A DNA stretch of 64,000 nt from Acidimicrobiia bacterium (GTDB lineage Bacteria > Actinomycetota > Acidimicrobiia > Spongiisociales > UBA11373): contig JBBDMM010000012.1 in NCBI GenBank assembly GCA_040878325.1, positions 1-64,000 of the forward strand. Reading direction: 5' to 3'. Shown piece by piece: positions 4,568 to 9,599 of the stretch. Below the pieces are notes generated by a model. It was not told the DNA's origin and did not search any database. It saw nothing but the letters and a program-made list of their open reading frames with translations. The stretch's first letter is position 1, and each line of letters begins with the position of its first letter. The position numbers were made by a program, and so were the translations under genes.

Positions 4568-5092
4568 CCTTCGAGGGTGACTCGGCCCTCATCGTGCCGA
4601 TCCCTGCAGCAGATCCAGTTATCCACAGGTGGCGGGTGCTCCACGACTCGGCAGCAGCCGCCGGCGTGCTGGCCCACGTCACGGTGCTGTTTCCATTCGT
4701 TCCCCGGGCGGAGATCGATGGGGAGGTGGAGGCGACCGTCACGAGGGTGCTGGCGCCGTTCCCCGCTTTCGTTTGCCGACTTGCCGAGGTCAGGTGGTTT
4801 GGGGACGAGGTGGCCTATCTGGCCCCCGAGCCCGATGTGACCTTTCGCCGCGTCCTCACGGCGATGTGGGCCGCCTTTCCGGATCATCCTCCCTACGAAG
4901 GAGTCCACGCGGCTCCCACGCCTCATGTCACCATCGGCCACCAGGGACCAGGGCTCGACGAGGCGGTTCGGGCGGTGGAGGAAACAACTGCCGATCGAAT
5001 CGGTGGCCGATCGGGTGGAGTTGATCACCCTGACGGAGGGATGGTGGTCCACCACCGCAACCTTCCTGCTGCCGGGCGGGTCAGCCGGGTAG
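4564..5092 (+). pseudogene. 2'-5' RNA ligase-like 2H phosphoesterase, frameshifted
   Basis: The two H-x-T/S motifs of 2H phosphoesterases are present, HVTVLFPF near residue 39 and HVTIG near residue 122, so the catalytic core is readable. After the second motif the frame breaks at the AAA run 4982-4984. Skipping one A restores a family-like C-terminus (VELITLTEGWWSTTATFLLP) ending at TAG 5090-5092. Without the correction the protein runs on to 5157 through sequence that also encodes the convergent kinase. The enzyme class acts on 2'-5' or cyclic phosphodiester bonds of RNA or nucleotides. GTG4564 overlaps the DUF2277 stop. Confidence 0.8.
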
Positions 5093-5995
5093 CGCTTCGA
5101 GCAGTCGCCTGGCTTCATCCGCCGAAGGGAAGGAGGTCTGAGTGCCGGGCCGGGTGACGCTGGCGGCGGCACTCCGGTTGGCGAGCAATGCGGCGGCATG
5201 GTCGTCCAGCCCAATACCGAGCCCGAAGGCGAACGTGCCGACAAAGGCGTCACCGGCTCCGGTCGTGTCGATTGCGACGACCTCTGGCGCCGCGATCCGA
5301 TAGACCCGTCCGTCTTCGACCAGGGCGCATCCGGCTGCTCCCAGGGTCACGACGAGGCGACATCCGAGGGTGGTGGCCACCTCGAGGAGGCTCTGATCGC
5401 TCTCGGCACGATCGAACATCAGCGCGAACTCGACCTCGTTCGGCGCCACCCAGTCACACGCCTCGAGAAGTGCCGGGTCGATCGGCGCGGCCGGGGCCGG
5501 GTTGAGAATCGTGGTCGCCCCGCCGGCTCGTGCCGCGGCGAATGCGGCCGCAGTGACTTCCTGGGGAATCTCGAACTGGCCGATAACCACGTTCGGTCGG
5601 ATCGCCTCGACCGCTTCCACCGCCTGCTCCGCGGTGAGGGCATGATTTGCTCCAGGCACGATGATGATGCGATTGGTGCCGTCCGGTTCCACCCAGATGG
5701 GGGCGACGCCACTCGAGCCCGGCACCTGATGGACAAACGTGGTGTCGACGCCGCGCTTCGCCAAGTTGTCGCGCGCCATGGTTCCGTAGGCGTCGTCGCC
5801 GACGCAGTTCACCATCCACACTTCGGCGCCGAAGTTGCGGGCCATCACGGCCTGATTTGCCCCTTTGCCCCCGAATCCCATCTGGAAGCGATCACCGACG
5901 ATGGTTTCACCAGGGCCCGGTATGCGAGGCGCGTAGGCGACCAGGTCGATCATGGTCGACCCGACGACTGCGATGCGTATTGGGGAATCGGTCAT
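5081..5995 (-). CDS. PfkB-family carbohydrate/nucleoside kinase (ribokinase-like)
   Basis: A 304-residue PfkB kinase. The N-terminal signature GGKGANQA (about 41-48) and the C-terminal DTTGAGDAFVGTFAFGLGIG with the catalytic Asp are intact. Spacing and length fit ribokinase (RbsK) best; no ribose transporter genes are nearby. ATG5995 gives the expected MTDSPIRIAVVGS start. It is transcribed away from the queuosine-salvage hydrolase, with 47 bases between start codons, so the two share a control region. Because PfkB enzymes also phosphorylate nucleosides, it could make the 5'-phosphate used by its neighbour (inference). The 3' end overlaps the convergent 2H gene. Confidence 0.85.
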   Translation of the reverse strand: MTDSPIRIAVVGSTMIDLVAYAPRIPGPGETIVGDRFQMGFGGKGANQAVMARNFGAEVWMVNCVGDDAYGTMARDNLAKRGVDTTFVHQVPGSSGVAPIWVEPDGTNRIIIVPGANHALTAEQAVEAVEAIRPNVVIGQFEIPQEVTAAAFAAARAGGATTILNPAPAAPIDPALLEACDWVAPNEVEFALMFDRAESDQSLLEVATTLGCRLVVTLGAAGCALVEDGRVYRIAAPEVVAIDTTGAGDAFVGTFAFGLGIGLDDHAAALLANRSAAASVTRPGTQTSFPSADEARRLLEALPG

Positions 5996-6042
5996 CTCGC
6001 GGCTGGATAGTCTGGCATGCGCTCGCCGACGGAGGTTTGTCG

Positions 6043-7053
6043 ATGATTCCCCGAACACTGCCTGCATGGGAGCGCCCGGTGCTCGCGTCGGTCGCCGAGG
6101 TAGTGGGAGAGACGGAACATGTCCGCACCTCTTCGGCTGCCATCGAGACGGTCGCCGACTGGATGGCTTTCGAAACAACATTCGAGCCGCCGAGCGGCGG
6201 ACCCGCCGGCCCCTTCGATTGGGGCGACGACACCAACGACTTGATCGACGCCACGATGCTGAAGGCGTCGCTGGACTTCGCCTTCACTGACTTCGACACG
6301 AGCACCAAGTACGAGGTCGACTACCAGGGCCGCCACTGGTCGGACAGCGAGGCGATGTTCGCCAGCATCCATCAGGCCCTGGCCGCCGGGGTGCCGATGT
6401 TGGAGGGGGACTACCAGGCGAGCGTGCGCCGCGCTGACCTAGCCCAGATCTTCCGGGGAAACATCGAAATGCCGATGCTCGAAGAACGGGTCGAGATCCT
6501 CAACGAGGTGGGGGCGAGGCTCGTGGCCAATCACGGGGGCCGGTTCCACCGGTTCATCCAGTCGTGCCCGCAGGTCATGTATGCCGAAGGTGATGGGGTG
6601 CTGGAGCGCCTGATTGCGGAGTTCCCCCGCTTCGACGACGTAAGCGCCTACAAGGGCCGCGAAGTGGTGATATACAAACTGGCCCAACTCGCTCTCTGGT
6701 CCCTGCATCTCGCCGTCGGGCCCGGCAAAGGCTTCAGTCTGGGGGATCTCGACAACATGACGGCCTTCGCCGATTACATCGTTCCGGTGGGGCTGCGGGT
6801 GATGGGCATTCTCGAGTACTCCGAGGATCTCGAGCGCCGCATTCTGGAGGGCGACCTGATCCCGCGCGACTCCGACGAGGAGATCGAGATTCGCGCTCAC
6901 ACGGTCTACGCCACCGCCCTGCTCACCGAAGCGATCAACCAGCGTCGCGGGGAGGGCCGGCGCCTGGTGATCCCCCAGATCGACTACCGACTGTGGAGTG
7001 CCTATCACGCCACCACCTGGCCGCACCATCTGACGCGTACGGTGATGTACTGA
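6043..7053 (+). CDS. Queuosine 5'-phosphate N-glycosylase/hydrolase (DUF2419, Qng1-like)
   Basis: A 336-residue member of the queuosine-salvage family. Diagnostic segments are the mid-region FHRFIQSCPQVMYAEGDGVLERL, GREVVIYKLAQLALWSLHL, the FADYIVPVGLRVMGILEYS block and the C-terminal WPHHLTRTVMY. Family members release queuine from queuosine-5'-phosphate so that tRNA-guanine transglycosylase can reuse it. GGAGG lies eight bases before ATG6043. The gene is divergent from the PfkB kinase. It implies that the organism salvages queuine, although no tgt gene is in the window. Confidence 0.85.
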   Translation: MIPRTLPAWERPVLASVAEVVGETEHVRTSSAAIETVADWMAFETTFEPPSGGPAGPFDWGDDTNDLIDATMLKASLDFAFTDFDTSTKYEVDYQGRHWSDSEAMFASIHQALAAGVPMLEGDYQASVRRADLAQIFRGNIEMPMLEERVEILNEVGARLVANHGGRFHRFIQSCPQVMYAEGDGVLERLIAEFPRFDDVSAYKGREVVIYKLAQLALWSLHLAVGPGKGFSLGDLDNMTAFADYIVPVGLRVMGILEYSEDLERRILEGDLIPRDSDEEIEIRAHTVYATALLTEAINQRRGEGRRLVIPQIDYRLWSAYHATTWPHHLTRTVMY

Positions 7054-7152: not shown

Positions 7153-7704
7153 TCATTCCTGCGGCGGTCTGTCCCAGTCCTGAACGTCCGTGCCCGCCTC
7201 GCGCGCGAGGATGTCGAGGGCGGCGGCTGCCCCGGCGCCGGCGGAGATGATGGCCTGGCTGCGGGTGGGCCTCGTGGCGCGGCCCACCGCGTAGACCCGG
7301 TCGAGCGACGTTCGTTGGTCCCGGTCGATCACGATCGCGGCCCCGTCGAACTCGAGGCCCAGCGCCTTGGCGAGCTCAGGGTTCTTCCCTTCGCTGAGGA
7401 TCAGGTACGAGGAGCGATGGGTCTCCCCGTCGTCGGTGGTGAGGGTGATCCCGTCGGGTGCCGCGGCTACGGACGCCACCCGGCGCGCATCCATGGTCGC
7501 CCCGTAGGCTTCTGCCTGCCCGCGGGCGATCCGCTGCAGGTCGGTGCCTGAGATTTCGGGAATACCGAGGTAGTTGTGGAGGTATGCGTATTGCATGGCG
7601 GAGGAATCGTCACCGAACACGGTCACCTGTTGACCGTTCTTGGCGAGGAAGAGGGCGGCACTGAGGCCGCCGGGTCCATCTCCGACTATCGAAACGGCAA
7701 CCAT
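7153..7704 (-). CDS. Short NAD(P)/FAD-dependent oxidoreductase (TrxR-like, no CxxC)
   Basis: A 183-residue flavoprotein with the FAD-binding glycine motif [18 protein letters not shown] at the N-terminus and the second FAD contact [10 protein letters not shown] near residue 140. It resembles the FAD half of thioredoxin reductase, but it lacks the inserted NADPH domain and the redox CxxC pair. It is therefore a minimal single-domain form, known from actinobacteria and archaea, of unclear function. Divergent from msrB (41 bases between starts), it fits a redox-stress cluster with msrB and thioredoxin. Confidence 0.78.
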
Positions 7705-7745
7705 TGGATCCCCTTCGCGTGACTACCGAGAGGAACACAGAAGCC

Positions 7746-8138
7746 ATGAAAGACCTTCCCACCACCGACGACCAGTGGCGCATGCGCCTCGCGCCGGAGC
7801 AGTTCCACATCTTGCGAGAAGCCGGCACTGAGCCGCCCTTCAGTGGGGCGTATTGGGACAGCCATGACCCGGGCACCTACAAGTGCGCCGGGTGCGGATC
7901 GGTGCTGTTCCGCTCCGATGCCAAGTTCGATAGCGGGAGCGGGTGGCCGTCGTTCGTCGATCCGGCCGAATCTGATGCAGTCACGACCCACGAGGACCGC
8001 GCTCACGGAATGGTTCGCACGGAGGTGCGCTGTGCCCGGTGCGGCGGCCACCTCGGTCATGTGTTCCCCGACGGTCCTGGACCCGGTGGGCTGCGGTACT
8101 GCATCAACTCGGCCGCACTCGATCTCGAGGCCGATTGA
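7746..8138 (+). CDS. msrB: Peptide-methionine (R)-S-oxide reductase MsrB
   Basis: A 130-residue MsrB that reduces methionine-R-sulfoxide in oxidised proteins, using thioredoxin. Zinc cysteines Cys47/Cys50 (CAGC) and Cys96/Cys99 (CARC), the GWPSF motif and the catalytic Cys119 in [10 protein letters not shown] are all present. I chose ATG7746 because it gives the usual MsrB N-terminus; an in-frame ATG at 7704 is possible. Its stop overlaps the TTG start of tag. Thioredoxin, its reductant, lies about 600 bases downstream on the other strand. Confidence 0.95.
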
Positions 8139-8758: not shown

Positions 8759-9148
8759 TCAACCGGTCTCGGACTGGTCCTCGTGGCCGGCGTGCTGCTC
8801 GGCGATCTGGCGATGGACGTCGACCATGTCGACCTCGCGCACATTGGTGATGAGATCCTCGAGGACATGCTCGGGCAGGGCGCCTGCCTGGCTGTGGAGG
8901 ACGACGTTCTCGCGGAACACCATCAGCGTCGGGATCGAGCGGATGTTGAAGAACTCGGCGAGCTCGGCCTGGGCCTCGGTGTCGACCTTGCCGAAGACGA
9001 TGTCGGAGTGCTCGGTCGACGCCTTCTCGAAGGTGGGGGCGAATTGCCGGCACGGGCCGCACCACGCGGCCCAGAAGTCGACGATCACGGTGTCGGTGCC
9101 GGCAATCGTCGACTCGAAGTTGTCCTTGGTCAGTTCAATCGTCGCCAT
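8759..9148 (-). CDS. Thioredoxin
   Basis: A 129-residue thioredoxin with active site WCGPC at 29-33 and the cis-proline segment IRSIPTLMVF. It reduces protein disulfides and would supply electrons to MsrB. The C-terminus has about 20 extra residues (MVDVHRQIAEQHAGHEDQ) beyond the usual fold. ATG9148 gives the standard MATIELTKDNF start. It converges on tag with no gap between stops. Confidence 0.93.
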   Translation of the reverse strand: MATIELTKDNFESTIAGTDTVIVDFWAAWCGPCRQFAPTFEKASTEHSDIVFGKVDTEAQAELAEFFNIRSIPTLMVFRENVVLHSQAGALPEHVLEDLITNVREVDMVDVHRQIAEQHAGHEDQSETG

Positions 9149-9204
9149 CGAGCACGCCTTTCTCGGATCCCGAGAGCCAACCGTAGACGAAGGCCCGGCA
9201 TTCC

Positions 9205-9248
9205 CTGACTCCGGGGGGACTGGGGGCGTATAATACGTCACTGTGACG
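9205..9248 (+). promoter_or_regulatory. Promoter (CTGACT-18-TATAAT) with palindromic operator over the start codon
   Basis: CTGACT (9205-9210), an 18-base spacer and a perfect TATAAT (9229-9234) form the best-looking sigma-70-type promoter in the window. It lies eight bases before GTG9243, so the transcript should be leaderless. The 13-base palindrome CGTCACTGTGACG (9236-9248) covers the transcription start and the start codon. A near-identical palindrome occurs at 9628. A repressor bound here would block initiation. Confidence 0.7.
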
Positions 9249-9599
9249 AATATCACTCACTGTTCGTGGTGCGGGCGGGGGATGGCCCAGGGGGAGCAGG
9301 GGCGACCGCGCAAGTACTGCCGGCGCAGCCATCGTCAGCGGGCCTACGAAGCCCGCCTGCTCGCCGAGCGGATGGGGCTCGACCGGGGGGAGGCCCTGGT
9401 CTCCGCCGACGCCCTGCGGGCGCTCAACGATCGGATCTACATCCTCGAGTCGGCGCTGACCGACGTCGAGCGTGACCTCCGGGTGGAGGGCGATCACCGA
9501 GCGGCGTTCACCCACCTCTACGCCGCCGCGGCGACATTACGGGGGGCGACTCTCGAACCGTCTGCCCTGTTGGATCCATCCGCCCTCTTGGAGGGGTAG
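9243..9599 (+). CDS. Small zinc-finger-like protein, actinobacterial hypothetical
   Basis: A 118-residue protein with an N-terminal zinc-binding pattern CSWCGR...GRPRKYCRRSHRQ (three Cys plus His candidates, residues 7-33). A helical middle (LRALNDRIYILESALTDVERDL) and a short tail follow. The Cys/basic segment resembles small actinobacterial proteins thought to bind nucleic acid; no function is established. GTG9243 lies inside a palindromic operator and behind a perfect -10 box, implying tight, possibly autogenous control. Confidence 0.75.
   Translation: MTNITHCSWCGRGMAQGEQGRPRKYCRRSHRQRAYEARLLAERMGLDRGEALVSADALRALNDRIYILESALTDVERDLRVEGDHRAAFTHLYAAAATLRGATLEPSALLDPSALLEG

Follow-up and report, generated by a model that had tools for sequence, protein, structure and literature searches.

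A divergent gene pair of a ribokinase-type kinase and Qng1 in Acidimicrobiia, probably kept in nucleoside scavenging

A gene for a ribokinase-type PfkB kinase and a gene for Qng1, a queuosine-nucleotide N-glycosidase of the DUF2419 family, stand divergently side by side in the window (the whole 64-kb stretch of DNA that was analysed), and their pairing across the class is not chance. From the sequence and modelled fold of the kinase and from the gene neighbourhoods of related genomes, we think it probable that this enzyme makes ribose-5-phosphate and is kept together with Qng1 in nucleoside scavenging. The original prediction, in which the kinase was a queuosine kinase supplying the substrate of Qng1, is weakened rather than refuted, since the ribokinase of T. 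maritima phosphorylates some nucleosides.

Organization of the gene pair

The locus comprises the following features:

5081..5995, minus strand: PfkB-family kinase, ribokinase type, 304 aa (PfkB PF00294, E=6.3e-63)
5996..6042, no strand: divergent intergenic stretch of 47 bp, start codon to start codon, with the ATG starts as chosen
6031..6035, plus strand: Shine-Dalgarno-like GGAGG, 7 bases ahead of the Qng1 ATG, read from the sequence
6043..7053, plus strand: Qng1/DUF2419 (PF10343) queuosine-nucleotide N-glycosidase, 336 aa (E=9.3e-53)

The kinase had been described as divergent from Qng1 with 47 bases between them, and with the ATG starts chosen here the gap at 5996-6042 is exactly that long; the two genes may be co-regulated from it. 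A comparison of the divergent intergenic regions at 6 loci (24 were asked for) revealed no obvious common element. Riboswitch control of the pair was rejected after an Rfam run on the window and five loci; within the 64-kb window no riboswitch was matched, the matches there being to rRNA and tRNA only. An antisense open reading frame across the kinase (5198-6010, plus strand) had no Pfam match and was taken as spurious. The genome from which the window derives (2.21 Mb in 18 contigs) gave no PF00294 match other than this kinase in a whole-genome profile search, so that adjacency by chance would be expected at about 2 in 2,200 genes, the gene number being assumed.

Downstream of Qng1, the gene at 7153-7704 encodes a thioredoxin-reductase-like protein of 183 aa, far below the 300-residue family model; it adjoins msrB (7704-8138) and lies near a thioredoxin gene (8759-9256), and a similar short protein of 184 aa is encoded at L079, a locus of a related genome. 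At the start of the window, positions 1-1089 hold the 3' part of a 23S rRNA gene (model positions 2557-2925) split by approximately 720 bases, with the break falling between the conserved UUAGAACGU stretch and ACAGUUCGGUCC. Within the inserted bases lies a LAGLIDADG_1 open reading frame (147-665); the insert resembles an intron or intervening sequence of the rRNA that encodes a homing endonuclease, and it matched no Rfam intron family at E<=1.

Conservation of the pairing in the class

The original prediction had proposed counting conserved PfkB-DUF2419 adjacency across genomes, and the count bears the conservation out. PF10343 was matched in 93 of 395 class genomes, with at least 150 bits in 68 of them (strong Qng1). 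When the window kinase was searched against the same 395 genomes, with the best five candidates at most scored per genome, 69 contained an orthologue of at least 220 bits, and the other ribokinase-like matches listed reached 188 bits at most; the cut of 220 bits was placed at this gap in the scores, a second copy or fragment in G065, at 188 bits, lying between. The orthologue was present in 54 of the 68 genomes with strong Qng1. Both genes shared a contig in 51/68 and were adjacent in 44/68 (42 divergent and 2 tandem, with a 4-bp overlap in the tandem pair of L088); in 7 same-contig pairs they stood about 6.4 kb apart, still divergent, and in 3 genomes they were on different contigs. Genomes with the pair belong to seven families (f1, f2, f3, f6, f7, f12 and f39), between which the flanking genes differ. 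Family f12 contributes 25 of the 51 same-contig pairs, and the Fisher value for co-occurrence, 2e-39, overstates independence, as these are related draft genomes.

Each gene is also found alone. Thirteen of the 69 kinase genomes (11 of them reduced genomes of f12, all drafts) had no Qng1 match at all, and in 2 further genomes the only Qng1 was weak and unlinked. Conversely, 14 genomes encoded strong Qng1 and no kinase orthologue: three (f42) with a close Qng1 (56-57%), nine with more distant Qng1 groups or from other families, and G317 (f7) and G386; the absence from G317 may reflect an assembly gap. Outside the class, PF10343 was matched in 15 of 396 genomes of the phylum, 12 of them over the cut-off.

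We considered whether the pair might reflect inherited gene order alone, with no functional tie. Conserved flanks within f1 would agree with this: L079 has the oxidoreductase gene of window 7153-7704 together with a DNA-3-methyladenine glycosylase-like gene, and L080 has thioredoxin-like, glycosylase-like and MsrB-like genes. However, the flanks vary between families, the pair occurs in divergent, tandem and operon-split arrangements, and the two genes are present or lacking together within f1 and f39; f1 genomes had both kinase and strong Qng1 (4/4) or neither (0/10 with either), and the corresponding counts for f39 were 7/7 and 0/2. We judge inherited order alone to be a very improbable account.

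The kinase retains a ribose site

PF00294 spans the whole window kinase at 213 bits (cut-off 25.8), and the best NCBIfam models are ribokinases. TIGR02152, the best of these models, which matched 42 of 42 aligned kinases, scored 279.8 bits on the window kinase, 20 short of its curated equivalog cut-off of 299.65; we therefore call the enzyme ribokinase-type and claim no certified RbsK equivalog. The ribose-binding positions of E. coli RbsK, which we take to be 14-16, 42-46, 143 and 255 (UniProt P0A9J6), were located in the window kinase by alignment: D17, G43-K44-G45-A46-N47, E142 and D249 correspond to D16, GKGAN 42-46, E143 and D255 of RbsK. Eight of the ten ribose-site residues are thus identical, the changes being N14 to M and A15 to I; ten is also the number given for RbsK in the available part of PMC13432705. 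The eight residues are kept in 37 of 37 kinases of the linked clade. Position 14 (E. coli numbering) is Met in 23 of these 37, the window kinase included, and Asn in 14; Met is also found there in the aligned human chain 5byc.

Two nucleoside kinases, E. coli PsuK and Gsk, were aligned to RbsK for comparison. PsuK has Val43 and Asn143, and Gsk has Thr43, its letter at 143 being alignment-dependent. The loss of Lys43, and of Glu143 in PsuK, that marks these two kinases is absent from the window kinase, which has K44 and E142. In a maximum-likelihood tree the linked kinases were united in a single clade (100/94) that excluded both E. coli RbsK and 28 generic ribokinases from the class; this separation leaves room for an altered substrate.

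The AlphaFold2 model of the window kinase (pLDDT 96.9) was nearest to ribokinases in Foldseek. When the Foldseek hits were re-examined with VIA-align, the highest Z was 43.2, to the Thermus ribokinase, followed by two entries of E. coli ribokinase bound to ribose and ADP (42.8 and 42.5), compared with 34.4-34.8 for the rows of adenosine, AIR, BthNK, MJ0406 and pseudouridine (PUKI) kinases, which share the same fold; as these rows only re-examine Foldseek hits, absence from them excludes nothing.

These data bear directly on the proposed role of the enzyme as a queuosine (7-deazaguanosine) kinase, which would convert the imported nucleoside to queuosine-5'-phosphate, from which Qng1 would yield queuine and ribose-5-phosphate by the logic of PsuK and PsuG. 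Against this proposal stand the retention of Lys43 and Glu143 in all 37 linked kinases aligned, unlike PsuK and Gsk, the ribokinases as nearest folds, and the persistence of the kinase in genomes without Qng1, as counted above. The window kinase is moreover the sole PfkB protein of a genome that encodes a nucleoside hydrolase. In its favour are the strength of the pairing, down to the tandem overlap in L088, and the nucleoside activity of a ribokinase: in the accessible portion of PMC10248530, the T. maritima enzyme is D-ribose-specific among sugars, and also phosphorylates uridine, thymidine and some deoxynucleosides. On balance we regard a queuosine kinase as unlikely.

The linked kinase stands in for a generic ribokinase in four families

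In four families (f1, f6, f7 and f39; best five candidates at most scored per genome), a second ribokinase-like match (E<=1e-30) was found in 0 of 26 genomes with a linked kinase, whereas a generic ribokinase was present in 15 of 19 genomes without one. Families f2 and f3 speak against strict replacement, with two matches in 3 of their 7 linked genomes (G156, G278 and G315). Apart from these exceptions, the distribution fits a linked kinase that has assumed the phosphorylation of ribose, and this substitution is a further point against a queuosine kinase.

Nucleoside importer and hydrolase genes neighbour the pair in sister lineages

In f7 (L070-L075; genes of L070 named by Pfam, those of L071-L075 by similarity) the 6.4 kb between kinase and Qng1 codes for a LacI-type regulator followed by the parts of an ABC importer (BMP/PnrA-like binding protein, ATPase and two permeases). 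The kinase points away from this series, which continues through Qng1 and an MFS gene to an IU-nucleoside hydrolase gene. G753 (contig of L008; L256) is arranged alike, kinase and LacI being transcribed divergently. In two reduced f12 genomes, G163 and G011, the kinase is divergent from Qng1 and the hydrolase gene directly follows Qng1, and at L078 it is a nucleoside hydrolase gene that faces away from the kinase, Qng1 being on a separate contig. On the kinase side in G163 (L087, 155-3485) lie two phosphorylase-superfamily genes, a CbiQ-type transporter gene and a sub-threshold match to an ECF substrate component, together possibly a nucleoside or queuine importer; an MFS transporter gene also lies on this side.

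Genes for BMP protein, ATPase and permease occurred near Qng1 at 13 of 48 loci scanned (L002-L009 and L070-L109, some from shared contigs). Operons for a BMP-type nucleoside ABC importer stand next to Qng1 at L008, L009, L070-L075, L096, L097, L102, L104 and L105, the last five belonging to divergent Qng1 groups. The importer beside Qng1 is a candidate for the import of queuosine or related nucleosides, and such importer genes in several lineages also suit the proposed queuosine kinase. The genome of the window encodes a complete BMP importer (L254: G000:C2) and one IU-nucleoside hydrolase, both away from the kinase-Qng1 locus.

We read the locus as one for nucleoside scavenging, with Qng1 as a part of it. 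The original prediction had placed the pair in a salvage module; this part is upheld by the importer and hydrolase genes at the locus in sister lineages, but salvage of queuine in its simple form is not, because the arrangement of tgt in this genome, described next, points elsewhere.

The Q pathway in the genome of the window

A genome search for tgt, which had been suggested along with the prediction, located the gene at G000:C1:66817-67869. It adjoins queA, a gene detected in 19 of 21 selected genomes. The encoded TGT keeps GGLSVGE, which we take to be the preQ1-type motif, and the position of tgt beside queA would suit a TGT using preQ1. Past the active-site Asp, this TGT (L039:1450-2592) reads DHLVGLP and other members DVCVGLP or a similar stretch; the E. 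coli enzyme differs here, with DECTPYP. For queC, the genome gave nothing better than a sub-cut-off match of 21 bits that covered 60 of 210 positions, and in the 18 genomes searched all matches were partial and of at most 34 bits; we read them as other PP-loop ATPases. Going by its genes, the organism most likely inserts imported preQ0 or preQ1 and completes Q with QueA. In the available text of PMC11130926, the importer encoded next to an Acidobacteriota qng1 carried preQ0/preQ1, which its authors had not expected, and ABC_tran and MFS are among the Q-salvage neighbours and candidates.

Qng1 retains two active-site residues

The window Qng1 scored 180 bits against PF10343 (cut-off 25) and aligned along its whole length with Qng1 of S. 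thermophilus (7u07, 7uk3). The active-site residues D298 and W302 of the latter, as given in the accessible part of PMC11592518, are kept as D314 and W318. A mobile or plasmid origin of Qng1 was rejected, as tblastn searches of plasmid and phage collections gave no match.

It could be argued that Qng1 acts mainly on the nucleoside and frees ribose for its paired ribokinase, so that queuosine would be turned into queuine and ribose-5-phosphate in two steps with no nucleoside kinase. Such a route would account for the pairing and the ribose signature together; however, the primary substrate of the S. thermophilus enzyme is queuosine-5'-monophosphate (PMC11592518, same part), and our analysis gave no sign of an altered preference. 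We consider a mainly nucleoside-cleaving Qng1 improbable.

Discussion

Under the ribokinase reading that we favour, the conserved divergent pair would form part of nucleoside scavenging. The kinase would convert D-ribose to ribose-5-phosphate, the ribose coming from nucleoside hydrolases and perhaps also from Qng1 acting on the nucleoside; Qng1 would act on queuosine-5'-phosphate and, less strongly, on queuosine, releasing queuine (or a 7-deazaguanine related to it) along with the sugar. Ribose-5-phosphate would then come from both enzymes, and the freed base would be recovered.

Several observations count against this ribokinase reading, namely the location of the genome's own hydrolase and BMP importer away from the locus, the sub-cut-off TIGR02152 score, Met14 and the separate clade. 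In addition, Qng1 acting on the substrate it prefers already yields ribose-5-phosphate, which a ribokinase does not take, so that a nucleoside kinase ahead of Qng1 better explains the tight and repeated pairing, the 4-bp overlap included. In terms of the pathway, the pair is directly intelligible only with a kinase step preceding Qng1. The Qng1-paired clade would in that case consist of ribokinase-derived queuosine kinases, perhaps acting also on ribose, and together with the BMP importer and Qng1 it would make up a full queuosine scavenging route like that of PsuT, PsuK and PsuG, an arrangement we hold to be doubtful. PsuT-PsuG-PsuK of E. coli provides the precedent in the available part of PMC9247573, and a kinase step in mammalian queuosine salvage was inferred from work of the 1980s (Gunduz and Katze, as related in the accessible portion of PMC4425180).

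In the open-licence PMC, no paper was found on a queuosine kinase gene or on a PfkB gene beside Qng1, the phrase 'queuosine kinase' returned 0 papers, and no named enzyme for queuosine phosphorylation was found; the word 'kinase' is absent from PMC11130926. For the step from free queuosine nucleoside to the substrate of Qng1, the kinase-Qng1 pair together with the importer and hydrolase of the sister lineages supplies a circumscribed set of genes that can be tested directly. Should the kinase prove to be only a ribokinase, the locus would still link Qng1 to general nucleoside scavenging in bacteria with tgt and queA, and the purpose of Qng1 in such bacteria would become the question. The recurring linkage of BMP importer and Qng1 marks out this importer family as a candidate for the uptake of queuosine or nucleosides related to it.

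Comparison with known systems

The uriR-rbsK1-uriT-uriH genes form the uridine-utilisation operon of Corynebacterium glutamicum, and L070 likewise brings together LacI, ribokinase, MFS and nucleoside hydrolase genes; the C. glutamicum operon differs in having, to our knowledge, neither Qng1 nor a BMP importer. With RbsK (TIGR02152; E. coli RbsK and human RBKS) the window kinase shares the PfkB fold, the GGKGAN and DTTGAGD motifs and the ribose site (D16, 42-46, E143 and D255), and ribokinases are its top matches in both sequence and fold, but it belongs to a well-supported clade of its own, scores under the TIGR02152 cut-off and is encoded beside Qng1 rather than in an rbs operon. The likeness to PsuK-PsuG of E. 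coli, which serve pseudouridine degradation, lies in a gene for a PfkB kinase that neighbours genes for a nucleotide glycosidase and a transporter; PsuK, however, is without the ribokinase Lys43 and Glu143, both of which the window kinase has, and Qng1 is no PsuG. Finally, the window Qng1 resembles Qng1/DUF2419 of S. thermophilus over its full length, active-site D and W included, and differs from the known queuosine-5'-phosphate hydrolase in its setting, as Qng1 of this type sits in genomes that encode tgt and queA.
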